NCBI GenBank assembly: GCA_947499635.1
Contig: CANMPD010000020.1
Coordinates: forward strand, 1 to 48,853
DNA length: 48,853 nt
Direction of reading: 5' to 3'
DNA from: an uncultured Paracoccaceae bacterium
GTDB lineage: Bacteria > Pseudomonadota > Alphaproteobacteria > Rhodobacterales > Rhodobacteraceae
Part shown: positions 11,254 through 48,452 of the stretch, piece after piece
How positions within the stretch are numbered: the stretch's first letter is position 1
How the letters are laid out: every line of letters starts with the position of its first letter
Translations under genes and position numbers: made by a program
The notes under the pieces: model-generated
What the model was told of the DNA's origin: nothing
What the model saw: the letters and a program-made list of their open reading frames with translations, nothing else
Database searches by the model: none

Positions 11254-11258
11254 CTGCA

Positions 11259-13707: not shown

Positions 13708-13768
13708 GTAGATCCTTTGGAAAAGCAAACTGGGCCTGTCCCGTTTTAGTGCGGCTCCAATTACTCAC

Positions 13769-14211
13769 TTAAGCGGCCCTTTGCTCGAAGGCCAATGGGC
13801 TTTTCTAGCCGAGGGCTGAATGCCTGTGTCGTGGATTTTAGAATCCATTGATGTATTCGAAGATGGCATTTCGGCATCGCGACGCGTATGCTAGGAGCGT
13901 TGCCAACCCTCCTGTGTCCCGACATAGCTTATGTCGCCCGCCGATTTCTGGCTGGGGCGGTATGTATGGAAGTTCTTGTTCAGTAAGTTCGGCGCGATGT
14001 TGAAGCTATGGTTGCTATCCGTGGTCGCCTTGAACTTCTTGTTTCTCTTCACCGTAAGGCTGTTCTGTCACATCAAGCGGCCGATGGGGTGATGTCCTAT
14101 ATCAACACTAAGCTCCTTCAGCTCTTCGGTCATCCGGAGCCTGCTGTAGCTGCCAGAGACAGGTGGAACTGGGTGCGGATGTGGGCAAGCAGCGCGATGT
14201 TGTTCCGCCGC
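13769..14211 (-). pseudogene. Decayed IS3-family transposase (OrfB) with internal deletion
   Basis: Minus-strand conceptual translation gives recognisable OrfB pieces in order: an LLAHIR...HLSL helix (about 14211-14160, shifted frame), RMTEELKELSVDIGH (about 14140), KFKATTDSNHSFNIAPNLL, SQKSAGDISYVGTQEGW (about 13930, start of the DDE domain), then directly RNAIFEYINGF-stop-NPRHRHSALG-stop-KSPLAFE, ending at 13769. The central DDE region between GDISYVG..GW and the C-terminal YIN-GF-NPR block is missing. There are two in-frame stops in the last block and at least two frameshifts. It is inactive. Confidence 0.8.
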
Positions 14212-14226
14212 CGCTGTCTGGCAGGA

Positions 14227-14460
14227 CGGTAATCGCAGCCCAAGTATCTTTAGCAGCCTTCGGACTCCATTGGCAGTATTTATCGTTTTCTCGAGTAACG
14301 CTTTACGCGTACTTAACAGCGGTCTCAGCTTGTGAATCTCTTTGCTTTTCGCATGAACAGGGGCCAACCAATCAATTCGTAATATTTGGGCAATTGAGTG
14401 TGAATTGATTGCTGTGAAATGTGTCGATTCTGACTTAATCAAGGTTTTGCAAACTGTAGA
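14227..14460 (-). pseudogene. IS110-family transposase fragment
   Basis: The minus-strand frame shows SIAQILRIDWLAPVHAKS and then LRPLLSTRKALLEK...NGVRRLLKILGL. This is the pattern of IS110-family transposases between the N-terminal DEDD domain and the central helix region, where the usual form is IAQ-h-R-x-GW-h-x-PVH-h-KS followed by LRxLLxAR and an RGLLKxFGL-like helix. Only about 70 codons survive. At about 14220 the frame passes directly into the IS3 remnant, so one element was broken by or recombined with the other. Confidence 0.7.
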
Positions 14461-24238: not shown

Positions 24239-26173
24239 ATGAATAAAGTTGCTGAACTTTTCGCCGAACAATACGGCCAGTCCCGCGAACATGAAATGCC
24301 CTTACAGGATTACCTACTGGCATGTCGGGATGACCCAAGCTTGTATGCAAATGTCGCAGAACGAATGCTCAAGGCAATCGGCGAAGAAGAGCTGGTAGAT
24401 ACGTCGAAAGACAGTCGCCTCGGGCCGATTTTTCAAAATCGAACGGTCAAACGGTATAGTGCTTTTAAGGAATTTTACGGGATGGAGGACACGGTCGAAC
24501 GGATCGTGGGGTATTTCCGTCATGCGGCGCAAGGGCTCGAGGAACGCAAGCAGATCCTGTATCTACTAGGGCCTGTCGGGGGTGGAAAGTCTTCTTTGGC
24601 AGAGCGCTTAAAGCGACTGGTCGAGGAACAGCCCATATATGTTTTGAAAGCGGGTGACCAAATTTCGCCCATTTTTGAAAGCCCTCTTGGATTATTTGAT
24701 CCAATCCGAATGGGGAAAGTGCTTGAGGAAGAATATGGTATTGCCACGCACCGTCTTCCGGGGCTGATGTCGCCCTGGGCCGTACAGCGCCTCGACGAGT
24801 TTGAAGGCGACTTGAATAAATTTTCTGTGGTGCGTGTCTATCCGTCGCGGTTGCGGCGTGTGTGCGTCGCCAAGGTTGAACCAGGTGATGAGAACAATCA
24901 GGATATTTCCACACTCGTAGGCAAGGTTGATATTCGTCAGCTAGAACATTTCAGTCAGGATAACCCAGACGCATATTCGTTTTCAGGTGGTCTAAACCGG
25001 GCCACACAGGGTGTTCTTGAATTCGTCGAGATGTTCAAAGCCCCGATTAAAATGTTGCACCCGCTTTTGACGGCAACACAGGAAGGCAATTATATGGGCA
25101 CCGAAAGCTTTGGTGCTATTCCATTTAACGGCCTGATCTTGGCTCATTCAAACGAAAGCGAGTGGCAGCAGTTTAAAAACAATAAAAGCAATGAGGCCTT
25201 TATTGACCGTGTTTCAATCGTCAAGGTCCCTTACTGTTTACGTGTCTCCGAGGAGGCGCGAATTTATGACAAGCTGCTACAAAATTCAGAGTTGCGAGCG
25301 GCCCCTTGTGCGCCAGAAACACTCAAAATTCTCAGCCGATTTTCGGTGCTGACACGGCTTAAACCGCATGAGAACTCTAATCTTTATAGTAAGATGCGAG
25401 TTTATGACGGGGAGAGCCTTAAAGATACCGACCCCAAGGCAAAAACCGTGCAAGAATATCAGGATCGTGCAGGGGTCGATGAAGGGATGAATGGGGTCTC
25501 AACCCGCTTTGCTTTCAAGGTTTTGTCATCGGTGTTTAATTTTGACACCGAAGAAGTGTCAGCTGACCCTGTGCACCTTATGTACGTGCTTGAGCAAACG
25601 ATTAAACGTGAGCAATTCTCTACGGAAACCGAAGCAAAATATCTTGAGTTCATCAAAACTGAGCTCGCGCCGCGCTACGAGGAATTCATTGGGAATGAGA
25701 TCCAGAAAGCCTATCTCGAAAGCTATACAGAATACGGACAAAATGTCTTTGACCGCTATATCTCATACGCGGATGCATGGATCGAAGAACAAGATTATAA
25801 AGATCCTGACACGGGTCAGCTTTATAATCGCGAGGTGCTGGATGCGGAGTTATCTAAGATTGAAAAGCCCGTTGGCATCGCAAACCCCAAAGATTTCCGC
25901 AACGAGGTGGTGAAATTCGCTTTGCGACACCGTGCCAATACGGGTGCTAACCCTGCATGGAATTCATATGAGAAATTACGCGATGTAATTGAAAAGCATA
26001 TGTTTAGTCAGGTTGAAGAATTGCTTCCGGTGATTTCATTCGGGTCAAAGAAAGATAGCCAAACCGAAGGCAAACATCACGAGTTCGTCGAGCGAATGCG
26101 TAGCCATGGGTACACTGATCGTCAGGTTCGACGTTTGGTTGAATGGTATATGAGAGTGAACAAAGCGGGCTAA
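24239..26173 (+). CDS. prkA: PrkA family serine protein kinase / AAA-type ATPase (YeaG)
   Basis: 644 residues, the usual length. An AAA-like P-loop domain fills the N-terminal half, with Walker A GPVGGGKSS at about 110-118. The C-terminal part is the PrkA domain with its kinase-like fold. In E. coli YeaG and in Bacillus PrkA are linked to starvation and sporulation-phase responses; the true activity (kinase or AAA protease) is debated. AGGAG precedes the ATG. It is followed 16 bases later by the yeaH homologue and then spoVR. This three-gene order is conserved across proteobacteria and indicates a common function. Confidence 0.94.
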   Translation: MNKVAELFAEQYGQSREHEMPLQDYLLACRDDPSLYANVAERMLKAIGEEELVDTSKDSRLGPIFQNRTVKRYSAFKEFYGMEDTVERIVGYFRHAAQGLEERKQILYLLGPVGGGKSSLAERLKRLVEEQPIYVLKAGDQISPIFESPLGLFDPIRMGKVLEEEYGIATHRLPGLMSPWAVQRLDEFEGDLNKFSVVRVYPSRLRRVCVAKVEPGDENNQDISTLVGKVDIRQLEHFSQDNPDAYSFSGGLNRATQGVLEFVEMFKAPIKMLHPLLTATQEGNYMGTESFGAIPFNGLILAHSNESEWQQFKNNKSNEAFIDRVSIVKVPYCLRVSEEARIYDKLLQNSELRAAPCAPETLKILSRFSVLTRLKPHENSNLYSKMRVYDGESLKDTDPKAKTVQEYQDRAGVDEGMNGVSTRFAFKVLSSVFNFDTEEVSADPVHLMYVLEQTIKREQFSTETEAKYLEFIKTELAPRYEEFIGNEIQKAYLESYTEYGQNVFDRYISYADAWIEEQDYKDPDTGQLYNREVLDAELSKIEKPVGIANPKDFRNEVVKFALRHRANTGANPAWNSYEKLRDVIEKHMFSQVEELLPVISFGSKKDSQTEGKHHEFVERMRSHGYTDRQVRRLVEWYMRVNKAG

Positions 26174-26189
26174 CAGACGGGGGTGTCAC

Positions 26190-27506
26190 ATGCACCATTT
26201 CATCGATAGGCGCGCAAATCCAAAAGGGAAAAGTCTCGGGAACCGGCAACGGTTCCTGCGCCGAGCGCGCGAAAATATTAAAGAACGTGTGGATAAATCC
26301 ATGCGCGATAAATCCATAGGTCAAGGGGAAGGCGTGGCAAAAGGAGGGGAGGAGGTTACCATTCCCTCTCGGGGCCTTAAGGAACCCAAACTGTATCATG
26401 GTCAAGGTGGTAACCGGCGGTATGTTTTGCCGGGCAACAAGGATTATGTGGTGGGTGATACCATTGATCGCCCTCAAAGTGACGCAGGAGAGGGAGGGCG
26501 TAAGGGGTCAGAGGATGGAGAAGGCGATGACGGGTTCTCCTTTACTCTTACGCAAGATGAATATCTCCAAATCCTTTTTGACGGTCTGGAACTTCCCGAT
26601 CTCGTGGAGAAGTCAACGGTTGAAACTGAAACCATCAGCATGCGCCGGGCAGGGTTAACCACAGCTGGGACGCCTAATAACCTAAATTTGGTGCGCACCA
26701 TGCGCAATTCACTTGGACGGCGTATTGCCTTGCAACGCCCCAGTGCCGCGGCACAACGGGCATTGCTCGTGCAAATTCAGGAATTGGAGGAGGTCACCTC
26801 ACGCAACCCAAGCCAAGAAGAGATGCTGGAGGAGTTAAAGACCAAACTAGAAGCCCTGCAACGTAAGCGTCGGGTCGTTGGTTACATTGATCCGCTCGAT
26901 TTGCGCTATGACAGTTTTGTTCCTGAGAAAATCCGCAATTCACGAGCTGTAGTGTTTTGTTTGATGGACGTGTCTGGTTCTATGCAGGAGCGGGAAAAAG
27001 ATCTGGCGAAACGGTTCTTTTTACTGCTGCATCTATTTCTGTCACGCGGTTATGAACATACCGAGATCGTCTTTATTCGTCACACACATTACGCCCAAGA
27101 AGTGGATGAAGAGACGTTTTTCTATGCACGTGAAACGGGTGGAACTATCGTCTCGACGGCCCTAGAAAAAATGCAAGAGATCATCGACATGCGATATCCG
27201 CCGGACGAGTGGAATATCTATGGTGCGCAGGCGTCGGATGGTGAAAATTTTGGCAATGATTCAGTCCGGTGCCGTCAGGTGTTGACAGAAAAATTGCTGC
27301 CTATGTGCCAGTATTTTGCCTATGTCGAAATCGTTGCCGAAGATGCGCAGCGCTTGTTACGCGACCCTACGGCGGGTGAAGATCTATGGCAAAATTACCG
27401 CCAGGTCAAAGCGCAAGTTAAACATTTCGAAATGCAGCGTGTTGCCGAACCAAGTCATATCTATCCGATCTTCCGAGAGTTTTTCCTGCCCAAAGTGAAA
27501 GGATAA
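26190..27506 (+). CDS. yeaH: YeaH/DUF444 family protein with VWA-like domain
   Basis: 438 residues. The N-terminal third is basic and Gly-rich, with HFIDRRANPKGKSLGNRQRF, the family hallmark. The C-terminal part is a von Willebrand A-like domain whose metal site reads DVSGSM (D260, S262, S264). Partner of PrkA in the conserved prkA-yeaH-spoVR operon; biochemical role unknown. GGGGG precedes the ATG. It ends three bases before spoVR. Confidence 0.94.
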   Translation: MHHFIDRRANPKGKSLGNRQRFLRRARENIKERVDKSMRDKSIGQGEGVAKGGEEVTIPSRGLKEPKLYHGQGGNRRYVLPGNKDYVVGDTIDRPQSDAGEGGRKGSEDGEGDDGFSFTLTQDEYLQILFDGLELPDLVEKSTVETETISMRRAGLTTAGTPNNLNLVRTMRNSLGRRIALQRPSAAAQRALLVQIQELEEVTSRNPSQEEMLEELKTKLEALQRKRRVVGYIDPLDLRYDSFVPEKIRNSRAVVFCLMDVSGSMQEREKDLAKRFFLLLHLFLSRGYEHTEIVFIRHTHYAQEVDEETFFYARETGGTIVSTALEKMQEIIDMRYPPDEWNIYGAQASDGENFGNDSVRCRQVLTEKLLPMCQYFAYVEIVAEDAQRLLRDPTAGEDLWQNYRQVKAQVKHFEMQRVAEPSHIYPIFREFFLPKVKG

Positions 27507-27509
27507 TGC

Positions 27510-29021
27510 ATGTACGCCGCATCTACCGATACAGGATTGTTATTTCAGGGCCCTGAATGGAGTTTTGAGCTGCTTGAGAAAACACGCGAAGCTATTCAGG
27601 ATATTGCGCTGAACGATTTAGGGTTGGATGTGTATCCGAACCAAATTGAAATCATCTCAGCGGAACAAATGCTTGATGCTTACTCTTGTGTTGGGTTGCC
27701 GCTGATGTATCAGCACTGGTCTTTTGGAAAACACTTTGCGCGCGATGAGGCTTTGTATCGTACGGGGCGACAAGGTTTAGCCTATGAGATCGTTATCAAT
27801 TCAAATCCGTGCATTAGCTATAACATGGAAGAAAATACCATGGCGATGCAGACTTTGGTCATGGCGCATGCGGCCTTTGGGCATAACCATTTCTTCAAAA
27901 ATAATTACCTGTTTCAGCAATGGACGGATGCCGAAGGTATTCACGACTATTTGGCATTTGCAAAAAACTATATTGCAGCCTGCGAGGAACGATATGGTTG
28001 GGAAGCCGTTGAAGAGGTCCTGGATGCGGCCCATGCGCTTCAGACACAAGGGGTTTTTCGTTACGGGCGTCCGCCTAAACCTTCGACGGAAGAACGTGTT
28101 GCGATGGCAAAAATGCGCGAAGCGTATGAAGCTGGGCAAAGCGCACTGGATATATGGACAGATGCAACACTTGGTTTGCGTCACGAGGAAAAAGATTTGC
28201 AACAAGGAGATCTGCAAAACCGTCGTGATAACCTGAATTTGCCGCAGGAAAATATCCTGTATTTCCTTGAGAAGCACAGCCCAATCTTAGAACCATGGCA
28301 ACGTGAAATTCTGCGTATTGTACGTATGTTGGCGCAATATTTATATCCGCAGAAGCAGACAAAGGTGATGAACGAAGGTTGTGCGACTTTTGTACATTAT
28401 TACATCATTAATGAGCTGTTTGAGCAGGGTAAAATCACGCAAGGTGCACTGATGGAGATGCTGCATAGCCATACTAATGTGGTGATGCAGCCAGAGTTTG
28501 ACGATCCACGATTTGGGGGAATTAACCCATATGCGCTGGGCTTTGCTATGATGCAGGATATTCGCCGGATCTGTGAGGAACCCAGTCAGGAAGATAAGGA
28601 GTGGTTTCCTGAATTCGCGGGGAACCCTGATTGGCGAGGTGTGATGCGTGGAGCATGGGCGAACTATCGCGATGAGAGTTTTATCCAACAATATCTATCG
28701 CCGCATTTGATGCGAAAATTCAAGTTATTCACTTTGACGGATAATGAAGACAGTTCAAAAATGGTGGTCACTCAGATCCACAATCGGGCTGGGTATAAAT
28801 CTATTCGCCGGGATTTAGCACGACAATATGACTTAGCTTATGCTGAACCTGATATTCAGGTCACGGATGCTGATCTGCGTGGGGATCGTGTTTTACGTTT
28901 GACGCATACCGTGCGCGATGGGGTTCATTTGGCTGAGAAGGATAAAACAGAGGTGCTTAAACATTTGCGTCGCTTATGGGGGTATGAGGTGACGCTTGCA
29001 GCTGTGGAATATTTCACATGA
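27510..29021 (+). CDS. spoVR: SpoVR family protein
   Basis: 503 residues, full length for the family (E. coli YcgB, Bacillus SpoVR). Conserved segments QHWSFGKHF, NPCISYNMEENTMAMQTLVMAHAAFGHNHFFKNNYLF, NEGCATFVHYYI and NPYALGF are all present. In Bacillus the protein affects spore cortex formation; in Gram-negative bacteria the role is open, probably in peptidoglycan or stress adaptation. AAAGGATA precedes the ATG. It is the third gene of the operon and converges on the alcohol dehydrogenase gene. Confidence 0.95.
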   Translation: MYAASTDTGLLFQGPEWSFELLEKTREAIQDIALNDLGLDVYPNQIEIISAEQMLDAYSCVGLPLMYQHWSFGKHFARDEALYRTGRQGLAYEIVINSNPCISYNMEENTMAMQTLVMAHAAFGHNHFFKNNYLFQQWTDAEGIHDYLAFAKNYIAACEERYGWEAVEEVLDAAHALQTQGVFRYGRPPKPSTEERVAMAKMREAYEAGQSALDIWTDATLGLRHEEKDLQQGDLQNRRDNLNLPQENILYFLEKHSPILEPWQREILRIVRMLAQYLYPQKQTKVMNEGCATFVHYYIINELFEQGKITQGALMEMLHSHTNVVMQPEFDDPRFGGINPYALGFAMMQDIRRICEEPSQEDKEWFPEFAGNPDWRGVMRGAWANYRDESFIQQYLSPHLMRKFKLFTLTDNEDSSKMVVTQIHNRAGYKSIRRDLARQYDLAYAEPDIQVTDADLRGDRVLRLTHTVRDGVHLAEKDKTEVLKHLRRLWGYEVTLAAVEYFT

Positions 29022-35066: not shown

Positions 35067-35141
35067 TGGGATGTAGCCAAGTGGTAAGGCAACTGTTTTT
35101 GGTACAGTGTACCGTAGGTTCGAATCCTACCATCCCAGCCA
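35067..35141 (+). tRNA. tRNA-Gln (anticodon TTG)
   Basis: 75 bases with the CCA end encoded. Acceptor stem TGGGATG/CATCCCA, D-arm GCC...GGC, anticodon arm ACTGT-TTTTGGT-ACAGT with anticodon TTG, variable loop, T-arm with GGTTCGAATCC, discriminator G. It reads CAA/CAG. A T-run (35142-35146) follows at once and may end transcription. The accessory-looking region that follows suggests that its 3' end served as an integration site, but no repeat of the 3' end was found in the window. Confidence 0.96.
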
Positions 35142-35941: not shown

Positions 35942-36148
35942 GCGACCTTCCCGGGCGCGCCCCTCGTTCATCACTCCCCCCATGTCGATCAGGGAGATCT
36001 ATGCCCTCATAACCACCCCACAATTGCTCATTACGTCTGAGATGTGCGGCCACGCCTTGTTGGAGAGGGCGAATTCTGTTGAAAAACTCTTCCTTGATTG
36101 AGTCCCCATTCGCTGATTCAATTCCTTTATTGGTTGGAGGATTTGGCG

Positions 36149-37144
36149 ATGATGGGACCGAAGCAGGAAGCACAGGCGGCGCTATTTTATGAGTTTTCGC
36201 TGGAGGGTCATGTCCCGCAAGACCATCTGCTACGCTCGATTGATCGGTTCGTTGATCTGGACGATATCCGCCAATATCTGGCCGAATTTTACAGCCACAC
36301 AGGCCGTCCATCTATCGACCCGGAACTGCTGATCCGCATGTTGCTTGTAGGATATTGTTTCGGGATCAGGTCTGAACGCCGTCTGTGCGAAGAAGTACAT
36401 CTGAACTTGGGATACCGCTGGTTCTGTCGCCTCGATTTGTCTGATCCTGTGCCCAACCACTCCACCTTCTCCAAGAACCGGCACGGACGGTTCCGGCAAA
36501 GCAAGCTCCTGCGGCATTTGTTCGAGAAGACCGTCGCCCGGTGCATTGCGGATGGTTTGGTGAGTGGCCAACGTCTGGCTGCAGATGCCAGCTTGATCGA
36601 GGCTGATGCCAACAAGCAGAACTCCACCCCAAAGTACGATTGGGACCATAGCGCAATTGATCCACGCGATGCACTACGCGCCGTTCGCGAGTATCTCGAC
36701 GCCTTGAATGATGCTGCATTCGGGGCGGCATCGACCGTAGAGCCAAAGTTCACGTCACACTCTGACCCCAGCAGCCAATGGACCGCAGCCCGCAAAGGCC
36801 CCGCTTTCTTTAACTACTCCACCAATTATCTGATCGATACCGATCACAGCGTGATTGTTGATGTCGAGGGGACGAGATCAATTCGACAGGCCGAAGTCGG
36901 ATCAGTGCGCACCATGTTGGATCGCATCAAAGATCGGCACGATATTGACCCAGAACGTCTTATCGCGGATAGCGCCTATGGATCAGGCCCCACCCTCGGA
37001 TTTGATGCCGGTGCTGTCCACTGCCCGGCAGGGCATCACGAAGTGATGTCCCGAGAGGGGGGCAGAAGGTTCATCCGGCCGGTTCCACCGCGATACGGCA
37101 GACTGACATTCAGGGTCTTCTGGCGACGGCATAGCGTGCTGTAA
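36149..37144 (+). pseudogene. IS1182-type transposase, 3' truncated
   Basis: Starts at the ATG at 36149 with GGAGG upstream. The DUF772-like N-terminal part (DHLLRSIDRFVDLDDIR, GRPSIDPELLIRMLLVGYCFGIRSERRLCEEV) and the first catalytic regions (AADASLIEADANK, IADSAYGSG) are intact. After about position 37012 the family resemblance stops, and the open frame continues through unrelated sequence antisense to an IS5-type fragment until 37144. The glutamate-containing last third of the DDE domain is missing, so it should be inactive. The sequence between the metallophosphoesterase stop and 36149 probably holds its left end (around the TTCTGTTGAAAAACTC stretch near 36075). Confidence 0.85.
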
Positions 37145-37482
37145 TCCGGCACCGCCCACTCCAACCCAACCAGCCGCAACAGGCTCTGCACGAACCCGGT
37201 CGTTTGCCGGAGTGGCATCCCGAACAAAACCTTTAAAGTAAGGCAGGCTTGGATCGCAGCATCGCTGAAACGCTGTTGACGACCACGCTTGCCGCCCGGT
37301 GGTGGTACCCAGACCATCTCCGGATCAAATCAAAGCTCAAGCGATCCGCGTCGCTTCAGCGCGACATTGTAAGCCGACCAGTTCGTGGTCTTGTACTTCG
37401 TAGAGGCCCAACTGCTCATACCCTCCAGCTATCACGCCGGGTTCAAACAGGGAAACCCTCACCCATTGTGCAACAAAGCCCC
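37060..37482 (-). mobile_element. IS5-family element, 5' fragment with decayed transposase
   Basis: On the minus strand the element begins at about 37482 with GGGGCTTTGTTGCACAA, a terminal-repeat type often seen in IS5-family elements. The transposase N-terminus is read from about 37405: YKTTNWSAYN, LKRRGSL, a stop codon where FDPEM is normally preceded by a tryptophan, then WVPPPGGKRGRQQRFSDAAIQ, LTLKVLFGMPLRQTTGFVQSLL and PDYSTLCRRQKTLNV. Homology ends at about 37070, where it abuts the truncated IS1182-type gene. Only the first third of the gene remains. Which element was inserted into which cannot be decided here. Confidence 0.8.
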
Positions 37483-37847: not shown

Positions 37848-38477
37848 ATGGCGAGCACATTCGAATTTCAAGACATCGGAATAATCGAAAAAATTAAGAG
37901 CCACTCGATCTTTGGGACAGTCGCAAAAACCGAAGGAACGCAGATTGGCGTTTCGCAAGCCTCTGCCAAAGCAACGATTGTCACTTTCGAAAACATCGAA
38001 ACGACTCCAACGGATGGTACGGTTAAGCCAGATGCCACGATGAGTGCGAAATTTCACTTCGGGGATGAACCTTTCGAAAGTTTCAAAGTTTATGTCACCA
38101 TCGCCGGCGCGCCCGACGGAACTGCCTTTTCGTTGAATTCTTCCGAACCAGGCACCACTCCGCCAATTGAAATCAACAAATCCACCATCTCGTCCGATCC
38201 CGTGAATCGCTTCATCACCGTTTCTGGAATGCCAGACGGGTATGAAACCGTTTTGTCGCTGCATTTTTGGTCCAACGGAAAGCGGCTGAAGGATTACGTG
38301 AAAATTTCCGTTGATATTGATCGCATTACTCAGGACGACGGGTCCCCGTTGCGTGACAGAGCCGAAAAAGGTGAGCGTCAAAGCGGGCCAGATGTCTATG
38401 GCATTGACCTGGGTATTCCTACGCCGGTCAGCCACCCGGTCGGGACATCCGAACTTACACTGGTTGCCAATTCGTAA
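37848..38477 (+). CDS. Beta-rich protein of unknown function, family member 1 of the five-gene locus
   Basis: 209 residues. Strong ribosome binding site (GGGAGGG) seven bases before the ATG. No signal peptide, no membrane segment, no cysteine visible. Beta-strand-rich composition with many Thr, Ser, Asp and Gly. Near the C-terminus it carries SNG-x6-VKISVD, which has the same spacing as motifs in the next three proteins. I recognise no named family. The weak similarity to gene 3 (a GxPxG...FW/YW block followed by the NG/DD signature) suggests common ancestry. It is probably the first gene of an operon that includes 38548, 39636 and 40196. Confidence 0.85.
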   Translation: MASTFEFQDIGIIEKIKSHSIFGTVAKTEGTQIGVSQASAKATIVTFENIETTPTDGTVKPDATMSAKFHFGDEPFESFKVYVTIAGAPDGTAFSLNSSEPGTTPPIEINKSTISSDPVNRFITVSGMPDGYETVLSLHFWSNGKRLKDYVKISVDIDRITQDDGSPLRDRAEKGERQSGPDVYGIDLGIPTPVSHPVGTSELTLVANS

Positions 38478-38547
38478 CCAGGCATTTGCGCAAAACCGCA
38501 ACCGGATTTGCGATCAAACCACAAAAATTCACTGGGGAGGTGTTGAA

Positions 38548-39621
38548 ATGAACAGCCAATTGGGATGCAATCTGCGCGGGGACGTCGCGCGACTTGGCGG
38601 CAACGGGATTTTCGAACGAAGTCAATTTGGCAGCTGTTCACCCGACATTGTTCCGTTGGGCGTCAGCGAACTTCCCGATCCTTCGGCGCGCCTTTTGGCA
38701 GAGTTTGACGCGGACCCCAGCCAGACAATTGTGCGTGGCGGTGTGAACCAGATTTTTCTGCGTGGCGTCTATTCTGATCGGCCAGATCAAAGTTACACCG
38801 CGCGCATGTACCATGGGGATGGCAGCCTGATCGTCTGGCCGGAAACCCTGCTGGACCGCGCATGTACGACAGGGGACGGCTTTACAGAAATCCCGCTAAA
38901 GCCAAATTACAAGGGCAGCAAATTCAGCCTGACACTCCCATTTCTTTACAATGCGCCCGTCAGAGAAGAGCCTGTCAGCTTTTTCACCGAGATCTACAAT
39001 CCCCAACCAATTGCCCAGCCCAGCCCAAGATGGCTGGATACGCGGTGCAGATCCCTTAGTGATCTGGCAAGCTACGCCCCGCTAAAACTGGTCAACTGGG
39101 CATCGCGCAATGTGGACACGGTGCCAACGGCCAGATCAGAACATTCTTTTGTTTCCTCTTTCTATTCAGGGTCATCGGATGAAAATCTGGTCTTCTCCAT
39201 TCGCTGCTTGAGTGTACCGGTTGGCTGGACGGTCAGCATGGACTTCAAGTCCGACAAAACCGGAGAAGTGGAATCCTGGATCCCGCCAACCAAAGTGGCG
39301 GACAGTCAATCCTTCGGTGTCTTTACCGAGAAATTTATCAAGGCTGAAACCGCCGGAGAGACCATCGTTCACTACGAGTCCAATGGGGTTCGGCCAATTC
39401 CGGGGTGGTCGATTACCGTTGACGTCATGCTCGTGGCCGATCCGACGTCAACGTCCGAGATCCAATCATTCAAAGCAGACCAACTGTTGGGCGATGCGTC
39501 ATCACTTGCGAACGCAGAGGTCACACGTGTCATTCCCATCGGTGGCGGCCGAATTGCGTCTCCCACACTGGCGGGTCTGCAACAGCCTTCGCTGGGGTAC
39601 GCCCAGCCCGTCATATATTGA
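38548..39621 (+). CDS. Unknown protein, family member 2 of the five-gene locus
   Basis: 357 residues from the ATG at 38548, fixed by GGGGAGG seven bases upstream; the open frame extends further upstream without a plausible start. No signal peptide. Residues 31-36 read SPDIVP and a later block reads SLIVWPET; the fourth protein of the locus has SPDIIP (30-35) and SYILWPHT at matching positions, so the two are clear paralogues. Its C-terminal part contains SNG-x6-W-x-ITVD, the locus signature, followed by a Ser/Gly-rich tail. Role unknown. It ends 14 bases before gene 3. Confidence 0.85.
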   Translation: MNSQLGCNLRGDVARLGGNGIFERSQFGSCSPDIVPLGVSELPDPSARLLAEFDADPSQTIVRGGVNQIFLRGVYSDRPDQSYTARMYHGDGSLIVWPETLLDRACTTGDGFTEIPLKPNYKGSKFSLTLPFLYNAPVREEPVSFFTEIYNPQPIAQPSPRWLDTRCRSLSDLASYAPLKLVNWASRNVDTVPTARSEHSFVSSFYSGSSDENLVFSIRCLSVPVGWTVSMDFKSDKTGEVESWIPPTKVADSQSFGVFTEKFIKAETAGETIVHYESNGVRPIPGWSITVDVMLVADPTSTSEIQSFKADQLLGDASSLANAEVTRVIPIGGGRIASPTLAGLQQPSLGYAQPVIY

Positions 39622-39635
39622 ATCAGGGGACCATC

Positions 39636-40178
39636 ATGACAGAAGAACTTAAATCAGAGCTGTGTTTTTCTTCGGCAACCTACAAGTCAAGCGCCACCGG
39701 AGAAGATGTTTTTGATCACACGACGCGGGTCCAATCTCGAAAGTTCACCTTTGAAAAGCGGGGATTGATAGACACCAGCGCGTTGGCATCTGGCGCACTA
39801 ACCGCCGACGATCCGGATCTGACTTTTGGATCGACATTGAACCTGGTCGGCGCTGACAAGCTGTCGACTGTAACCCTCATGATCAAAGGTCAAAGCCTAC
39901 CGATCGAAACGTCCGTTGGTCTTATGGGCCCCGATGGTGCGGTCATTATTCCAAGGACTGTTCTGACAACGTCGTCCGGTCTTTTCGGCGCAAAGAGCAT
40001 GCCGGCAAGCGCAGTCGTCTCGGACCAAGATTACACTGTCCAATACTGGCTCGACGACCAGATCATGCAAACCGGGGCGTCACTCACGCTTGAAGTCACC
40101 GGTGAGTCTCAGGGTGGCCAAAATGGATTGGTCGGCAAGTCTATCTGGATTCTGGCGATGCCAGATTCCAGCAACTGA
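39636..40178 (+). CDS. Unknown protein, family member 3 of the five-gene locus
   Basis: 180 residues from the ATG at 39636, with CAGGGGA upstream; a TTG at 39618 overlapping the previous stop is less likely. No signal peptide. Beta-rich. The signature is degenerate: DD-x6-A-x-LTLE instead of NG-x6-[WV]-x-I-[ST]-VD, but the spacing is unchanged and it follows a YTVQYW strand, as in gene 1. Likely a diverged paralogue of gene 1. Same operon, short gaps on both sides. Confidence 0.82.
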   Translation: MTEELKSELCFSSATYKSSATGEDVFDHTTRVQSRKFTFEKRGLIDTSALASGALTADDPDLTFGSTLNLVGADKLSTVTLMIKGQSLPIETSVGLMGPDGAVIIPRTVLTTSSGLFGAKSMPASAVVSDQDYTVQYWLDDQIMQTGASLTLEVTGESQGGQNGLVGKSIWILAMPDSSN

Positions 40179-40195
40179 TTTCGGGGAGAACACAA

Positions 40196-41179
40196 ATGAG
40201 CGATAATACTTGGACCGATTTCCTTATGCGCACCAACACTGGAGATGCCGGAACTGTCCCGGGTCCCGGGCCTGCATCTTCATCCCCGGATATCATTCCC
40301 TGGGGACCTACGCAGGTTGATGACCCGCAAACAACTTTTTCGGATAACTATGGCAGCAACCCTGGCAAATCCCTGATCACGAACACGATCAACACGCTTT
40401 ATGTGCGATCAAAGAACCTCTCGCCAGACGCCAACTCGGGAAAGGTCTCACTGTATTGGGCCAGCTCCAGTTACATTTTGTGGCCCCACACACAGGGTGA
40501 CGTCAAAGGGTGGAGCGAAAACATCATCCCGGCAGCGAATGGCAAGGATACAATCGAAATTTCGGCTGACCCCGATGCGGTTGCTGTGACACAGAACCCA
40601 TTTCTTTGGAACCCTTCGCCACCAGCGCCGGGTACGCACTATTGCCTGATTGCAGGTGTGGCGACCGATGAGCATCCTCAGATTGTTCCTGAAAACGATG
40701 AGGTTAACACGGGTGGTGAATGGGCGAATTGGGTGTTGAACCACCGCAATGTTGGTTGGCGTAATGTTGCTTTGTCCGACAGCGGAGCGGCAACCTCATC
40801 AAGGTTGGACAACTTCCAGAACGGAACGGACGAACAGACCTACATGATCAACATCAATTGCGAGAATTGTCCGATTGGCTGGGAGGTCGAGTTGAAATCC
40901 TACAACAACACGCCGCCGTTGCCCAATCCTGCGATCAACATCAACAGAACGCGTATTACGGATGACACCTTTTTTGGGACATTTGTGAAATCGACGGTTC
41001 CGGCCAACTATTTCTCGTTGCTGGCCATCAACATCTACAACAACGGCATTCAGCCGGACAAAAGGTGGGACATTTCCGTTGATGCAACCGTTGAAAAAGA
41101 AAACTCCAAAAGCGTCGCCGACATTCCAATCAAGGAAGTTGTCGTTGTCGGCGGTGTACAGGTGGCTATAGCGGACTGA
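40196..41179 (+). CDS. Unknown protein, family member 4 of the five-gene locus
   Basis: 327 residues. GGGGAGAA precedes the ATG. Paralogue of the protein at 38548: same order of SPDI-[VI]-P, an N-x-[IL]-[FY]-[LV]-R block, I-[VL]-WP-x-T, a central RNV segment, a [PV][IV]GW strand and the final NNG-x6-W-x-ISVD. Proline-rich loop near 21-28. No signal peptide or membrane helix. The gene is followed by a hairpin and a 172-bp gap before the giant gene, so it is probably the last gene of the first transcript. No known function. Confidence 0.85.
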   Translation: MSDNTWTDFLMRTNTGDAGTVPGPGPASSSPDIIPWGPTQVDDPQTTFSDNYGSNPGKSLITNTINTLYVRSKNLSPDANSGKVSLYWASSSYILWPHTQGDVKGWSENIIPAANGKDTIEISADPDAVAVTQNPFLWNPSPPAPGTHYCLIAGVATDEHPQIVPENDEVNTGGEWANWVLNHRNVGWRNVALSDSGAATSSRLDNFQNGTDEQTYMININCENCPIGWEVELKSYNNTPPLPNPAININRTRITDDTFFGTFVKSTVPANYFSLLAINIYNNGIQPDKRWDISVDATVEKENSKSVADIPIKEVVVVGGVQVAIAD

Positions 41180-41185
41180 TATCAG

Positions 41186-41218
41186 GCGAAACGGGTCTCA
41201 CGATGACGCCCGTTTCGC
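41186..41218 (+). terminator. Strong hairpin between gene 4 and the giant gene
   Basis: GCGAAACGGG (41186-41195) and CCCGTTTCGC (41209-41218) form a 10-bp perfect stem with a 13-base loop, six bases after the gene 4 stop codon. The 3' flank (ATCTTCC) has only a poor T-run, so it may attenuate rather than fully stop transcription into the giant gene. Confidence 0.7.
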
Positions 41219-41351
41219 ATCTTCCACGGCCCCACTTTCAAATCTAAAGCACCCTTGGGTCACTGCGCACCCAGGGACGATACTTTGCAGGTCATCGCCG
41301 CTGAACGGGCCGTGCTTGCATTGACGTAGTTCGAAAAAGAGGAATAGATTC

Positions 41352-44300
41352 ATGCAGTTGGTAACAATCACGAGTTCCGATCGATACCAGGATGCAAAGA
41401 CATGCACGTTTCAGGGAACGGTCTTTGCCTTTGCGCGGGACACTGAAATGGCGTTTGATGCTGGCGGCGACAACATTGTTTTTAACGTTCTGAATCTTCA
41501 GGCCCGGTCTCAATCAGACGCCATGGATTGGAGTGGGTTCATCCCCGTCACGTTCCCGCCCAGCTTGCGCCCTGCGGGTATCAGTCTGATCGAAGTCGAC
41601 GCAGCACCGCTGGCAGACGTGATCGCACCCGCGCAGCAGCCATTTCAGGTTATCAGCGACGACACATTCATCTATGTTTTCCGTCCCTCGACCGCCGGCA
41701 CGATCCTTGTGAACCGCATGCTTCCTTCGTCCGAGTTCGACAGCGCACTTGGTGAACAAAGGTTCAGCCTGTCTCCTGCTTGGGAAGTGCGTTTCAGGGA
41801 CAGCGGCAAGGTCGACATTCCGGCCAACGACAAAGACATCCTTTCATTCACCAACGCGGATGGCGAACCATTTCTGGAACCCACCGAAGAGCTGAATTTT
41901 GTATCAGGTGTATCTGATGGATGTTTCGGCGTGTCTTTGGTGCATGGCACCTCATCTGCGTACTGGCATGTTTTCACCACACGTAACGATCTGAAAGAAA
42001 TGCAACATTTTTCGATCCAGAAGGGTGACGGAAACACATTTGACCTGAGCGATCAGCTGGTGGGTAGCAATGGCATCATTGCGCCGACCAATAGGTTCAA
42101 ATTACAGACCGAGGTATCCGGCACGGCAACTGACCTTGAGATGTCATTCGCACCTGCAAGCGAACTATATACCGAGCGGGAACAAGTCCAAACCAGCGAG
42201 GGAGAGGCGATTGCAGCACAAAAGGCCGTCCGGCTGGCTTTGGCGCAAGTTGTGAGTATTGACGACAAAAATCAAGCAGCGTTCCTTGATATCGGCATCG
42301 GGTCCGATGGACAGATTAACAGCTTCCCCGATGCCTTTTTGCTCAAACCAATTTCGCCCGCAAACTACGCGTTGTCCTTTGACCCGTTCGCGCATCTAAC
42401 CTTGCCGAATACAAGCAACACTCTGGAACTTGCCAGCAGTTTCAAACTGAGCGTTTGGATCCGTCCCAGAACGCTTGAAATGGCGGAACAACAAATCGTC
42501 GGAGACAGCGGAAGCGCCGGCAAAGATCGATCTGTGTTTCTGTCGACCTTCGACACAGGACGCCTGGCGGTTGGCTTTGGCAACGGGGACGATGAAATTC
42601 GCACCACGTCAGTTGATCGACTCCTGACACCGGGAACGTGGTCGCTGGTTGAAGTGCATTTCGACGCATCCGATGGTGACCCGGACAACACGTTCACACT
42701 GACCGTGAATGGTGATGCTGTACCGCTGTCAAATGCAATTACAAAAACTGTCCCCAAGGGGGCCCCTGTAACCCGGGTGTCAGCCGCAAACGGTGGCTGT
42801 GTCGCCACGCTGGATTCTGTTCAAATCGAAAACGATGGCACAGCGGTTCTGGACTTACCGTTGAATGAAATTGATTTTCCGACCGACCCCTCCGATGCCG
42901 CAACAACCGAAGACACCTCGGCCGCGGGTAATATAGCCACTGTGATTGGGGGCGAGCTGGTGCCATCAAACGCACCGGTGCTGGCCAACGTTCAGGGGGA
43001 TTTGTACGTAGACCCATACAACGGGCTGCGCACGTATTATGGCAGCTTGCCTTTTGTAGATGCGTCCGCGTCCCCAACACTTTTGAATGGGTCGGAGGGC
43101 TTGCTGCACCTTTACTTCAAGGGGTCAGAAACAGCGACGTCCCCAGAAACCCCCAGCGGTTTTAATGTGACGCATCTGAACTTGAACACGCAGCGGGCCA
43201 TCTTTGTAACCGATTGGGAGGCAGGCTCGGGCGACGCAAAACAAACCGGCCAGTTTGAATTCCTTGCGCAGCGTGCCGGAACTGTGATGAACGATGCCAC
43301 GATCAAAATTACGCCTCGCGATGTTCTGACGGCCGGGCTGTGTGACACCACAATTAAAGTGGGCTCAGATTTCGAAGAGGCGTGGCGTGGCGTACCGGTT
43401 GAAGCATCCGCTTTCCAGGCCATTCTGTCCGGCCGGTTCTCTGCCAGCCCTCAGGACGCGCGGGTGTTGTCAGGTGAAACCGTTTTTTACGATGTTTTCG
43501 GCCACTATGAACAGGCGCGGGTCGCGCTCGATCTGGAAGAGAAGTTTGCCGTATTGAACTTCGTGACCCGTTTTGTGGATGAACTGTGCCTCAAGAACGT
43601 CAAGATCGAGAAGAGTGGCGAAAAGCGCAAGGCAACGCTGACCTTTGCGGTCAAAAAACCCGATTGGCCCAGCAGTGTTCTTTTTGTTGAAACCTGGGAC
43701 AATGTCCCTCTTGATGTTCGTGGGTTTGTAGACGCATTGAACGGCTTGCCCGGTGGTGCGTCAGCAACAACAAATTTGGAAACCGTGTTCTTGCCCGCCT
43801 TTAGCAACTCGGTAGGAAACACTGTCAGTTTCATACTGCAATCCAAGTTGACTGCTGTCCGTATGGAGGTGTCACACGGCAGTGGTTCAGAAACCTGTAA
43901 AGTGACGCTGAATGCGAAGGTTTCGGGCGAAAAAAAAGCCACGGTCCTGAACAATGTGCCGCGCGAAATCACCCAATTTGCTTCGGTCTTGGGCGGCAAT
44001 GACGAAGCCTATGACTACAGTGATCAAGCAAGTGGGGACTTTGCAGAAATACTGCCGCTCTGGTGTCCTTTGGCGGCGGGATCACAGGCCAGCATACAGG
44101 ATCGCAAAAATTCTGCTCTCAGCGCTGGCGGACTAGAACTGGCGTCCAGCCTTTTCGCGCTCTTTCAGTCCGGTGCATCTGCAGGGGCAACAGTCGTACC
44201 CGAGGATTTTGATGGCGCAGCGTCAAAACTGCAATCTGGTCTTGCAGGTGATACTACTGCCCTTGAACGAGGATCACAGATCTTCCAGGCTGTCCCCAAA

Positions 44301-47300
44301 AGCCGCCCAACAAATGGTTTTGTGGCATTGGTGCAACCGACCGGAGACTTCACTAACGGCACCGCAAATCTGGGGGTTTCCGGCGCAGACGGTGGCTGGA
44401 TCAATCAACCACCGCAAAAGGGGGTGAATTTCACCGGCCAGCAATACATCGATTTTTCCCAGCAAGCGCCAAGTTTTTCCGCGCTGACCTTCACCCAGGA
44501 TATGACTGCGGAAACATGGATCAAGCCTCTGGCGACGACCAACGCTGACTTGCTAACCAAGCCTCAGCGCATTTTGACAATGAATCACACGGGCGTTCCG
44601 GGCAACCCTGACGCTGTGTCCCAGTATTCCTTGGGAATGATGGGCGCATATAGCTTTGACATGGGCCCCAAAACCTTTGTGTCTGGTGCGTCTGCCATGG
44701 ACGGTTTTGATATCTCTTTGGAACTATGGATAAAATTGGGCCAGAATAAAGAAGGTGGCGATCTGGCCAGTGTTCAAACCATCGGCACGGGATCAAGCAT
44801 TCTAAGCGCGGCCCTGACTGATGCTGGCAAAATCAAGGTGTCCTTCGGAACTGGCAGCCTCGAAACAAGTCAAACACTCGCGGTGAACACATGGACTTAT
44901 GTTGTGATCACGCAAACCGACATGTCCAATGGGCCGGCAGGGAATGCGATGATCACCGTCTATGTGAATGGAGCCGAAGATTCGAGCCTGCCCATTGCCT
45001 ACGATTATTCGGTCAAACCTCAACCTGGCACTTTGATTGTGGGGGCTGCCGATTTTGGCAACGCCGTGCCACCTGATCTGAGCGTCAACGTCGCCTCCAT
45101 GTGGTCTCGGGTTTTGACGAATGGTGAAATCGAAAAGTCGGTTCATCGTCCCTTGTCAGACTGGTCGCCAGAACTTCACATTCGTTGGAAATTCGCTGAG
45201 GGTTCCGGTGAAACCATCCGAAACTACTCCCGTTACGGCTCTGAAGCCAATGGCGAGGTTCGGTCAGAAACCGGTTCCGGTTGGGTTGAGGGTGGGATCT
45301 ACACGAATTTCACCTTTTCCTACGGAAATGAAGCTGTGGCAGGTGTCGGCACCAATCTGACCAACCAATGGAGCCACCTTGCAGCAAGTGTGCGGCGCGG
45401 CACCAGTTTGCAATTCAGCAATGGTACATATGCCGCCACAGGACCAACAGATGTTCTGAATGCTGATAGCGCGGCGTCCATTGAATTTTGGGTGCGCCCG
45501 GACAGCACGGCAAGAACGCAAATGCTTGCAGAACGGACCGGCAGCTTTTCGGCTCAGATTCTTGCCGGTGGTCTTGTTAGTGTCACGTTCCAAACAAATC
45601 AGGGGCCTGTCCAAATTGTCAGCAATGACGCAGTCAATGCGTACGAAACGGCCTATTTCGCAGTTACCTTTAAATCTGAGATGGACAACCCGCCTCCCAG
45701 CCAACCCACCGACGACCCTGCCGCGGCCGCAGGATACACAGTTACGGTCAACATCTACAAAAACGGGGTTTTGCAAGGGTCGCCGTTGGTTCAAAAACAT
45801 TCCGACGCAGTGAGCCTGCAAAACCAGAAAGCTGGTTTGAACCTTGGTCGGGACGCGACTGGATCATCATCGTTTTCAGGTACCCTAGCGCAGTTTAGAT
45901 TTTGGAATAGGCAACTTGTTCAAGGCGACATAGCCGTTGCATATGCATCGCGGACGTCGCCCACTGATACTGATGGGCTCGTCGCCAGCTGGACGTTTGG
46001 CGAAATGCAGGGGCGGATTGCCAAAGATCAGGGTGGCTCCCTGCAACTTGTCTTAAGCGAAGACACAATGTGGGCCTATCTGGATGCGGTCTCTTCGATC
46101 CTGTTTATGATCAACGGCGATGGCGTGGCCCAGCTGGACCGGTTGGTTGCAAATGATTTGGGCGGTTATGGGGATCAGCAATTCCGTTTCGGAATGTCTG
46201 CAGGCACAACAGAAGTTGCCGGACTGAGCGCCGAAATAGATGACATTCGACTGTGGGACATCGCCCGCACGATCGAACAGATAACCGACGAACAGTTCCG
46301 GGCGCTGGACGGCAAGGAAACTGGCCTGGCGGGGTATTGGGCTTTCAATACCGGATCGGGCAGCGAAGTCGAAGATGCAACCGGGCGTGGCAACGACGGT
46401 GCCTTTGGGGTCGACCCGGCCAATCCGGTCTGGGGCGTTTCACAAGCGCCGATCAGCATTGAAACCGGAGCCGTCCATAACGTGCTGGGCGGCGTGCCGA
46501 CTGGCTACAACCAGGCGATTGCCGGAGCTCCTTCTGTTGTGGAATACGCCGACCTTCAAACCGATGCTTACGGCAACGTTTTTTCAGTGATGAAGCGCTG
46601 CTACGTGGCGCCACAGGAAGAAAACCTGATGTTGGTGACAGGGTATAAGGTCGGCGACCTTGATACAGTCTTTGTTGGTCAGGTCCAAACCGAACCAAAA
46701 ATCATCGGATACTTCGAAGGGGCGCCGCCCATTCCCAGCGAAAACCAAACCATGCCCACCTGGAACGGCGACATTACAGAGTATCACACCTACGCAGATG
46801 CAACGACTGTGAATGTCACCATCGAACAAGATGTCTCTCAGTCGGTCACCGGCTCTTACATCAGCGGCAGTTCAACGGCGCTGTCCGGTCAAGTCGGCTT
46901 ATATGCGGGCACATCCCTTGGCGCCAGCGCGGGGCTGGGTTGGGAGAACGATTGGGGGTTCTTTGAGGCGAACTTGAAACTGGGGTTTGCCTTTGATACC
47001 GAAAACGCCACCAATACATCCAAATCCGCGACACAGGGTTTCACGACAACCAAAACTCAAACCAGCTCGCTGACGCCGGGCGGATATTGGGAACCAGAGG
47101 ATCAAATTCTCAACCCAACGGTTGGCCGCCGTTACATTCCAGACAATCTCGGGACCGCAGTTGTGAAATCAAGGGTGGCAGACCTTTATGCCTCGCGGAT
47201 CAAATCCAGCGGGCAACTGGTGAAACTGTCGATCCTGCCCAACCCCGACATTCCCGAAGATGTGAACATGATCGATTTCCCAATCAATCCGGCTTACATC

Positions 47301-48452
47301 AAAAACGGGACATTGGACGGCCAGGTCGGCCTTGAAAAAGACCGCGAAACGGGTGTCAGTTACTTCCGGCCGCTTGAAGCCTACGCCATGAAGCGCAGCA
47401 TTGAGCGGGAAGAAAAACAGATCAACGCATACCTTGAACAAATCAACCTGTCATCGTTGGCAACAGAAGGAGGGTTCGACAATTTTGTTGACAACACGCT
47501 TCCCGAAAACCCTGCCTTTGACTGGTCCAAAAGGGTTTCAAAACGGGGCCTTGTGAACACCTACATCTGGACCGCCGGGGGCGGAACGCATTCAGATACT
47601 CTTGCCGTGGCAGACAGTTATAGCGAAGAATGGGGATCGGTTCGCTCGTCCTCCACCGGGCTGGGCTTGCATGCAGAGTTTTTGATCGCGGCGTTTGTCG
47701 GCGTCTACGGCGAACTCGACTTCATGAACAGCACGACATTGGAAACCACTGGCACAAGAACAAAGGAACAAAACAGCGCGGTGTCACTGGATGCCTCTGC
47801 TGCACCTGATTGGTTCCTTTCTGCCCCGATTGTGGATGGCGCCACCGTATCTTACACAGAAGCCCCCGCACCAGGGAAGGTCGAGGGTTATCGCTACAAC
47901 GCCTTCTACCTGCCCCCGAGCCAGTCAAATTTTGACTTCTTCGCACAACAGTCGGGGGGGGTGATTGACCCAGTCTGGTATCAGCAATCACAAAGCCCAA
48001 ATGCCGCTGCATTGCGTGAAGCGCGCGTGGCCGATAATGGCACTTGGCGTGTGCTTTACCGTGTTACCTATGTGGCGCGCATTCCCCCAAGTTTTCAACC
48101 TTCCCCGGATCTGGTCCAAACACCGGCCGTTCGCCCACCTGCCAACCTAGACCAAAATACAGTCCTCACACAGTTGGTTGACCAACAGCTCAACATGACG
48201 CTGGACCCAAGCCCAAGCGATGTAGGCAGCGCACTTCTTGATGTTTTGGGCGAAAACGCCGCAAGTGCGGGCATTCTTGGTGGCGCGCTCAGCTGGTGGA
48301 GTGCTTTTTTGACCCTTGGTGCGAACTACTCAAATCCGCAGTCCGTCACCGAAGCGGAATTGAGAGAAGACAGTCTGGGATATATGTTGAGCAACTACGA
48401 GACCCGTTCAATTTCTTCGCATCAGAACGTCAGAATGATTGCCAGCAGGTGA
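41352..48452 (+). CDS. Giant LamG-domain protein with possible membrane-inserting beta segments
   Basis: 2366 residues; GAGGAA lies nine bases before the ATG. No signal peptide or conventional membrane helix. Unfamiliar beta-rich region 1-335; LamG domain about 337-505; region 520-1020 with three copies of an x-VP-x5-F-x3-L-x-G motif (near 675, 780 and 863); then a LamG domain that seems split. Its opening strands (about 1025-1098), middle strands (about 1313-1350, QWSHLAASV) and closing part (about 1573-1686, DDIRLWD...GLAGYWAF) are separated by two complete LamG domains (about 1099-1312 and 1351-1572). The C-terminal third has two Ser/Thr/Gly-rich alternating stretches (about 1816-1907 and 2081-2150) separated by a conserved-looking block with PDNLGTAVVKS, NPDIP and GGGTH (His2080). 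LamG domains usually bind glycans or proteins. The overall function is unknown; a glycan-binding pore former is a hypothesis. Confidence 0.85.
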   Translation: MQLVTITSSDRYQDAKTCTFQGTVFAFARDTEMAFDAGGDNIVFNVLNLQARSQSDAMDWSGFIPVTFPPSLRPAGISLIEVDAAPLADVIAPAQQPFQVISDDTFIYVFRPSTAGTILVNRMLPSSEFDSALGEQRFSLSPAWEVRFRDSGKVDIPANDKDILSFTNADGEPFLEPTEELNFVSGVSDGCFGVSLVHGTSSAYWHVFTTRNDLKEMQHFSIQKGDGNTFDLSDQLVGSNGIIAPTNRFKLQTEVSGTATDLEMSFAPASELYTEREQVQTSEGEAIAAQKAVRLALAQVVSIDDKNQAAFLDIGIGSDGQINSFPDAFLLKPISPANYALSFDPFAHLTLPNTSNTLELASSFKLSVWIRPRTLEMAEQQIVGDSGSAGKDRSVFLSTFDTGRLAVGFGNGDDEIRTTSVDRLLTPGTWSLVEVHFDASDGDPDNTFTLTVNGDAVPLSNAITKTVPKGAPVTRVSAANGGCVATLDSVQIENDGTAVLDLPLNEIDFPTDPSDAATTEDTSAAGNIATVIGGELVPSNAPVLANVQGDLYVDPYNGLRTYYGSLPFVDASASPTLLNGSEGLLHLYFKGSETATSPETPSGFNVTHLNLNTQRAIFVTDWEAGSGDAKQTGQFEFLAQRAGTVMNDATIKITPRDVLTAGLCDTTIKVGSDFEEAWRGVPVEASAFQAILSGRFSASPQDARVLSGETVFYDVFGHYEQARVALDLEEKFAVLNFVTRFVDELCLKNVKIEKSGEKRKATLTFAVKKPDWPSSVLFVETWDNVPLDVRGFVDALNGLPGGASATTNLETVFLPAFSNSVGNTVSFILQSKLTAVRMEVSHGSGSETCKVTLNAKVSGEKKATVLNNVPREITQFASVLGGNDEAYDYSDQASGDFAEILPLWCPLAAGSQASIQDRKNSALSAGGLELASSLFALFQSGASAGATVVPEDFDGAASKLQSGLAGDTTALERGSQIFQAVPKSRPTNGFVALVQPTGDFTNGTANLGVSGADGGWINQPPQKGVNFTGQQYIDFSQQAPSFSALTFTQDMTAETWIKPLATTNADLLTKPQRILTMNHTGVPGNPDAVSQYSLGMMGAYSFDMGPKTFVSGASAMDGFDISLELWIKLGQNKEGGDLASVQTIGTGSSILSAALTDAGKIKVSFGTGSLETSQTLAVNTWTYVVITQTDMSNGPAGNAMITVYVNGAEDSSLPIAYDYSVKPQPGTLIVGAADFGNAVPPDLSVNVASMWSRVLTNGEIEKSVHRPLSDWSPELHIRWKFAEGSGETIRNYSRYGSEANGEVRSETGSGWVEGGIYTNFTFSYGNEAVAGVGTNLTNQWSHLAASVRRGTSLQFSNGTYAATGPTDVLNADSAASIEFWVRPDSTARTQMLAERTGSFSAQILAGGLVSVTFQTNQGPVQIVSNDAVNAYETAYFAVTFKSEMDNPPPSQPTDDPAAAAGYTVTVNIYKNGVLQGSPLVQKHSDAVSLQNQKAGLNLGRDATGSSSFSGTLAQFRFWNRQLVQGDIAVAYASRTSPTDTDGLVASWTFGEMQGRIAKDQGGSLQLVLSEDTMWAYLDAVSSILFMINGDGVAQLDRLVANDLGGYGDQQFRFGMSAGTTEVAGLSAEIDDIRLWDIARTIEQITDEQFRALDGKETGLAGYWAFNTGSGSEVEDATGRGNDGAFGVDPANPVWGVSQAPISIETGAVHNVLGGVPTGYNQAIAGAPSVVEYADLQTDAYGNVFSVMKRCYVAPQEENLMLVTGYKVGDLDTVFVGQVQTEPKIIGYFEGAPPIPSENQTMPTWNGDITEYHTYADATTVNVTIEQDVSQSVTGSYISGSSTALSGQVGLYAGTSLGASAGLGWENDWGFFEANLKLGFAFDTENATNTSKSATQGFTTTKTQTSSLTPGGYWEPEDQILNPTVGRRYIPDNLGTAVVKSRVADLYASRIKSSGQLVKLSILPNPDIPEDVNMIDFPINPAYIKNGTLDGQVGLEKDRETGVSYFRPLEAYAMKRSIEREEKQINAYLEQINLSSLATEGGFDNFVDNTLPENPAFDWSKRVSKRGLVNTYIWTAGGGTHSDTLAVADSYSEEWGSVRSSSTGLGLHAEFLIAAFVGVYGELDFMNSTTLETTGTRTKEQNSAVSLDASAAPDWFLSAPIVDGATVSYTEAPAPGKVEGYRYNAFYLPPSQSNFDFFAQQSGGVIDPVWYQQSQSPNAAALREARVADNGTWRVLYRVTYVARIPPSFQPSPDLVQTPAVRPPANLDQNTVLTQLVDQQLNMTLDPSPSDVGSALLDVLGENAASAGILGGALSWWSAFLTLGANYSNPQSVTEAELREDSLGYMLSNYETRSISSHQNVRMIASR

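Follow-up and report, generated by a model that had tools for sequence, protein, structure and literature searches.

Organization of the Locus

The window analyzed here is an entire contig (CANMPD010000020.1, 48,853 nucleotides) of an uncultured Paracoccaceae bacterium. Near its end, five open reading frames (ORFs) follow one another on the forward strand, to which all coordinates below refer. Four of them encode small proteins: g1 (37848-38477, 209 aa), g2 (38548-39621, 357 aa), g3 (39636-40178, 180 aa), and g4 (40196-41179, 327 aa). The fifth encodes a giant LamG protein of 2366 aa (41352-48452). The gaps between the five genes are 70, 14, 17, and 172 nt, and a Shine-Dalgarno-like stretch precedes every start. 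A strongly hydrophobic N-terminal segment is absent from all five proteins, as judged by hydropathy only and not by a signal-peptide predictor; 17-residue windows starting in residues 1-45 peak at 0.15-0.81. ORFs and hydropathy thus confirm the layout given by an earlier sequence-only reading, that is, four adjacent small genes with short gaps, ribosome binding sites, and no signal peptide, followed by a LamG giant. Promoter-like sites (8 versus 6.9 in shuffles) and terminator-like sites (12 versus 14.4) are no commoner than in shuffled sequence, so that they do not fix the limits of an operon. Since the contig ends 401 bases past the giant gene, any downstream partners are out of view.

A tRNA-Gln gene (35067-35141) lies upstream of the five genes, and two different transposase remnants, one of the DUF772 type and one of the DDE_Tnp_1_5 type, are located between it and g1 (36098-37317). 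The same reading took this setting as typical of an acquired trait. Rarity fits acquisition: among 295 genomes of the window's family, the giant was detected only in its own genome, in one copy, and B-type small genes (see below) in three. Base composition, however, gives the five genes no foreign mark (50-55% GC versus 51% for the window). Farther upstream, the window holds a PrkA kinase - DUF444 - SpoVR gene cluster (24239-29021).

Two Types of Small Proteins

The small genes were previously regarded as four equal paralogues. By sequence comparison, they are instead two alternating pairs: type A (g1 and g3), with one beta-sandwich, and type B (g2 and g4), with a CARDB-like domain followed by an A-like domain. 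In g4, these are a putative CARDB-like Ig domain at about residues 2-196 and an A-like beta-sandwich. The two B proteins match each other at E 4.4e-16 with 22% identity, g2 being a strongly diverged copy. The B profile also matches g1 (E 1.6e-11, positions 179-296), and hhalign gave 97% for g1-type against B C-terminal domains. The C-terminal signature claimed for all four proteins was recovered as a single gap-free stretch of 31 columns in their alignment. It is clear in g1 (FWSNGKRLKDYVKISVD), g2 (YESNGVRPIPGWSITVD), and g4 (IYNNGIQPDKRWDISVD; core NNGIQPDKRWDISVD, 41039-41083), although the copy in g3 is only a degenerate one (YWLDDQIMQTGASLTLE).

The assignment of g3 to type A is the weakest of the four. 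It scores 15.5 bits with the A-core HMM, in a comparison whose E-values rest on a handful of sequences, and an alignment that includes g3 (A8) reached 86% against B by hhalign. A small profile made of g3 and its counterpart in locus L018 showed no relation to the other small-protein profiles (8.2, 0.4, and 1.8%). When L018 was present in both profiles, hhalign gave 98.9%, a value inflated by this shared row; it was 84% without L018 and 96% when the tail of the L015 protein was added.

By the CARDB fold test, B is predicted to have an Ig-type, CARDB-like fold. At the level of family profiles, with E up to 1, none of g1-g4 matches the Pfam CARDB profile, and PDB sequences gave no match to the B profile at E up to 5. 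For g1, no Pfam, NCBIfam, or PHROG family was found at E up to 1, and these three libraries assign no enzymatic family to A or B. B differs from known CARDB/Ig domains (PF1109, transglutaminase Ig domains, RbmA) in that a second sandwich, common with type A, follows.

The Giant Protein and Its Family

The giant contains three Laminin_G_3 stretches by Pfam (124.3 bits against a cut-off of 27.6, E 5.8e-36), the best of which covers residues 1356-1528 (45417-45935). Beyond these, Pfam gave only a chance-level match to CatAgl_D1 at E up to 1. The giant also matches PHROG 21223, a family of unknown function (E 2.7e-15, best stretch residues 1629-1684). Apart from LamG and this PHROG, nothing of weight was found for the five proteins in Pfam, NCBIfam, PHROGs, and PADLOC, whose anti-phage defense models gave 0 families at E up to 0.1. 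Among PDB sequences, the best matches to the giant were antibody heavy chains (E 0.031), and the best match to its C-terminal profile was influenza hemagglutinin (E 0.22); both were taken as chance. Its N-terminal profile gave no PDB match at E up to 1.

With a profile built from its C-terminal block, 231 relatives were detected in the genome contig collection, and the best 80 of these were analyzed as loci. Their hosts are Cyanobacteria, Actinomycetota, Bacteroidota, Pseudomonadota, Thermodesulfobacteriota, Acidobacteriota, Chloroflexota, and one Methanosarcinales bin. On plasmids, 14 records match the giant by tblastn, one with at least 80% coverage, namely the relative on Salipiger abyssi plasmid pPABY4 (33% identity over 98%). 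Coverage is shorter on Calothrix, Streptomyces, Planktothrix, and Nostoc plasmids, and some further records match in LamG only. Across window, plasmid, and genome loci, 53 of 89 matching ORFs are 2,300-2,560 aa long, some ORFs being clipped by contig ends. The giants of L074 and L015 are split over several ORFs, whose pieces were used separately and unmended. Conservation extends to the N-terminal part, which could be aligned in 18 of 18 relatives tried, at 23-37% identity to the window protein. Where annotation was seen, relatives are usually just "LamG domain-containing" or "hypothetical." Judged from these sequences, the giant belongs to a large LamG family that has no name in the libraries searched.

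Linkage of the Small Genes to the Giant

A B gene adjoins the giant in 12 of the 80 loci (L015-L025 and L074), which is a lower bound because in 10 of the 80 the flank of the giant ORF is shorter than 1,500 bases on one side. The same was found on the Salipiger plasmid, where the order is giant-A-B. The other orders are A-B-giant (L018), the doubled A-B-A-B-giant of the window, and giant-B-A. The A profile found an A gene in six of the 12 loci (L020, L021, L022, L024, L025, and L074), and a single-sequence search added those of L023 and L016. For L018, L017, and L019, the A assignment goes by position and by a length of 175-180 aa only, the gene of L018 not being significant by profile. In L015 (Leekyejoonella), one 556-aa ORF (10848-12515) joins B to an extra domain of the A/B C-terminal type where A would be. 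The closest single matches of this domain are the C-terminal domain of the L016 B protein (E 7.4e-6) and then g1 (E 0.0021), with E-values again computed over a handful of sequences. In Pseudomonas lactucae (L074), a 218-aa ORF (13668-14321) comes after giant-A-B; it appears helix-rich by eye and has no Pfam match.

When 86 giant C-termini were placed in a tree, the 13 rows with B came out as one clade, with an SH-aLRT value of 99 and a single change on the tree (0 of 500 shuffles as low). This is a quick tree with SH-aLRT support only, and it leaves out L007 (same plasmid as L030), L022 (a near-copy of L006), and the shorter matching ORF of L074. Members of the clade come from Alpha- and Gammaproteobacteria, Desulfoluna, and an actinomycete, which belong to three phyla. 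Giant and B are also co-inherited: their distances are strongly correlated (Mantel r 0.947 for 13 loci and 0.944 for 11, the window being represented by g4 and L022 by L006), and 0 of 5000 permutations gave a value as high. Matched distances and one clade across phyla are what transfer as a unit would give, and the gene cluster has probably spread between species. Recurrent co-localization in unrelated genomes, which the sequence-only reading had named as support for one system, was thus observed in three phyla, in different gene orders, and with matched distances. The idea of one functional system is partly supported, but 68 of the 80 sampled giants have no detected B alongside.

B genes also occur away from the giant. 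In searches not centered on the giant, B-like genes were found in 3 of 295 genomes of the family, 1 of 385 of the class, and 3 of 398 of the phylum, the window's own being included each time. In the four other B-bearing genomes (L100-L103), no giant was seen in the fetched surroundings, and the C-terminal profile found it in 0 of 4 genome-wide, in a run that had no positive control and included one genome of 73% completeness; in the search of the family genomes, this profile did find the window's own giant. The B match of L103 is a fragment of 62 positions. Plasmid pRF23 of Burkholderia ubonensis (L010:10004-20666) carries a B-type gene followed immediately by Tc toxin genes of the VRP1 and TcA types. 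The outcome named beforehand as speaking against one system, small-protein homologues occurring mostly without the giant, was therefore seen in part, in these four genomes and in Burkholderia. In addition, the N-terminal part of B matches portions of a Paracoccus S8 peptidase and a Methanomethylovorans C13 peptidase, and the B tree does not cleanly separate giant-linked from giant-free genes. By these comparisons, B represents a module of wider distribution, and the genes linked to the giant are a subset of it.

Neighbors of Other Giants

In another clade, genes of the phage tail collar type (PF07484) lie directly upstream of the giant. This was found in 8 of the 80 loci (L026, L027, L028, L029, L031, L032, L033, and L068), seven from Bacteroidota and one from Breoghania, and collar matches on four of these genes have E-values from 3.7e-15 to 8.2e-40. 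A and B themselves have no collar match in Pfam at E up to 1. No phage tail genes were noticed beside the giants in the five of the eight loci that were read. All-against-all clustering of neighboring ORFs brought out no further recurrent partner that could be recognized among the 40 largest clusters; besides B, A, and the collar group, these are mainly ORFs overlapping the GC-rich giants.

Although one clade has collar-domain partners, a phage or tail-particle reading was dropped because no viral relative of the giant (13 pattern matches in viral contigs, 0 confirmed), no phage relative of the B-family protein L004, and no usable match in the BFVD structure search (best TM 0.18) were found. 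Of the former suggestion that the proteins are subunits of a complex or particle, a partner-subunit role is still plausible, but "particle" is unsupported.

Several single neighbors were recorded. In Pseudomonas entomophila COR5, a gene for a tripartite Tc toxin repeat protein (L025:19227-21575) follows the giant at a distance of about 7 kb, and on Streptomyces clavuligerus plasmid pSCL3 the next gene after the giant is annotated with a RICIN domain (L008:19683-20225). The ORF right after the giant looks Hint-like by eye in Pseudomonas orientalis (L038:11876-13312) and PI-PLC-like in Sphingobacterium (L027:11917-13218), neither having a Pfam match at 0.01.

The C-Terminal Module and Its Predicted Hairpins

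The C-terminal module of the giant, residues 1689-2366 (46416-48449), is conserved in an alignment of 40 sequences and was modeled with AlphaFold2 (pLDDT 80.7, pTM 0.63). Two long beta-hairpins are predicted in it, the first at residues 1818-1907 (46803-47072) with strands of 37 and 35 residues, and the second at residues 2086-2150 (47607-47801) with strands of 27 and 35 residues. Hydropathy alternates along these strands beyond shuffles (p<=0.05) in 18, 17, 15, and 11 of 40 sequences, respectively; for three control segments taken from this module, the counts are 0, 1, and 0 of 40. Their S+T+G+N content is 37-44% versus 28% overall. From the model and the alternation, the hairpins are predicted to be amphipathic and of membrane-spanning length.

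Foldseek placed proteins that form oligomeric beta-barrel pores in 49 of the best 50 of 425 matches to the model; secretins, the alpha-hemolysin type, CytK, and aerolysin are among these 50. The TM-scores are 0.17 or less and none is a fold-level match. The predicted hairpins are shared with these beta-barrel pores; unlike them, the giant has LamG domains and a 2,366-aa chain, and no sequence relation was found. The Secretin Pfam domain is absent from 40 members at E up to 0.1 and from the giant at E up to 1. A MACPF/CDC reading had been expected from the two hairpins and a motif reminiscent of MACPF; no such protein is among the Foldseek matches listed, and we do not claim this reading.

A Possible Pore-Forming Machine and Alternatives

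The explanation that we consider best, and hold with evenly balanced confidence, gives the giant, a protein of several domains, a pore-forming or membrane-translocating function and makes A and B its dedicated partner subunits. In this view, the jelly-roll domains of the LamG type would attach the giant to glycans of a target cell. Oligomers of the C-terminal module would form a beta-barrel in the membrane, to which each protomer would contribute its two long amphipathic hairpins. A and B would most likely serve in receptor binding or assembly, B bringing its CARDB-like Ig domain, and in the related clade the collar genes would occupy the partner position instead. The giant would leave the cell independently of a signal peptide, lysis being one conceivable route.

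If the hairpins were an artefact of the AlphaFold2 model, the proteins could instead act inside the cell, as a scaffold or an enzyme complex. The N-termini without signal peptide-like character suit such a complex, as does the conservation of the module in many Cyanobacteria and Actinomycetota, and the pore and export reading draws on inference from sequence and model. We regard this alternative as fairly improbable, since the alternation is present in the sequences themselves, and LamG domains are usually extracellular. The giant may also be a LamG-type surface or matrix adhesin that makes no pore, with A and B as matrix cross-linkers like the Vibrio biofilm scaffold RbmA. This is unlikely in our view. 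The five window proteins have no signal-peptide-like N-terminus, and among relatives only 2 of 69 ORFs of at least 2,300 aa reach an N-terminal mean hydropathy of 1.6, owing to a conserved VVVFGR strand. It would also leave the predicted hairpins unexplained.

Among known systems, Tc toxins resemble the locus in some respects. TcA is very large and has no signal peptide, and the giant, by hydropathy, combines the same features with linked accessory genes; the Burkholderia B-type gene adds a likeness of neighborhood. The Tc channel is alpha-helical, whereas the pore element predicted for the giant is beta. The TcA domains ABC_toxin_N, neuraminidase-like, and TcB-binding (PF20220, PF18413, and PF18276) are absent from the giant at E up to 1, in a test that works because the same domains were detected in the Burkholderia Tc gene. 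No TcB or TcC gene is among the window proteins scanned, on a contig that ends soon after the giant (401 bases).

The B gene beside Tc genes could also mean that the giant is a translocator and that A and B are its cargo, that is, effectors rather than targeting subunits. Small, linked, and diverging proteins (the end branch of g2 in the B tree is 4.63), doubled in the window, would suit this role. Yet A and B have no enzymatic family, the predicted Ig-type fold of B suggests binding, and B keeps pace with the giant rather than being swapped freely inside the clade. We thus consider cargo very improbable and retain partner subunits of a pore-forming or translocating giant.

No paper related to such a system was found among the PMC articles searched. 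The cluster may encode a toxin-like or delivery machine of a new kind. A broader proposal, tentative and on the doubtful side, is that the giants make up a widespread and new class of beta-barrel translocators or pore-formers, tethered by lectin domains and released without a signal peptide. A conserved pore engine would be combined with exchangeable partner cassettes for receptor binding, namely A/B sandwich proteins in one clade and phage-tail-collar tips in another. If the tail of the giant is a beta-barrel pore, a sizeable and so far unrecognized pore-forming or delivery family, with clade-specific partners, would exist in Cyanobacteria, Streptomyces, marine Rhodobacterales, Pseudomonas, and Bacteroidota.
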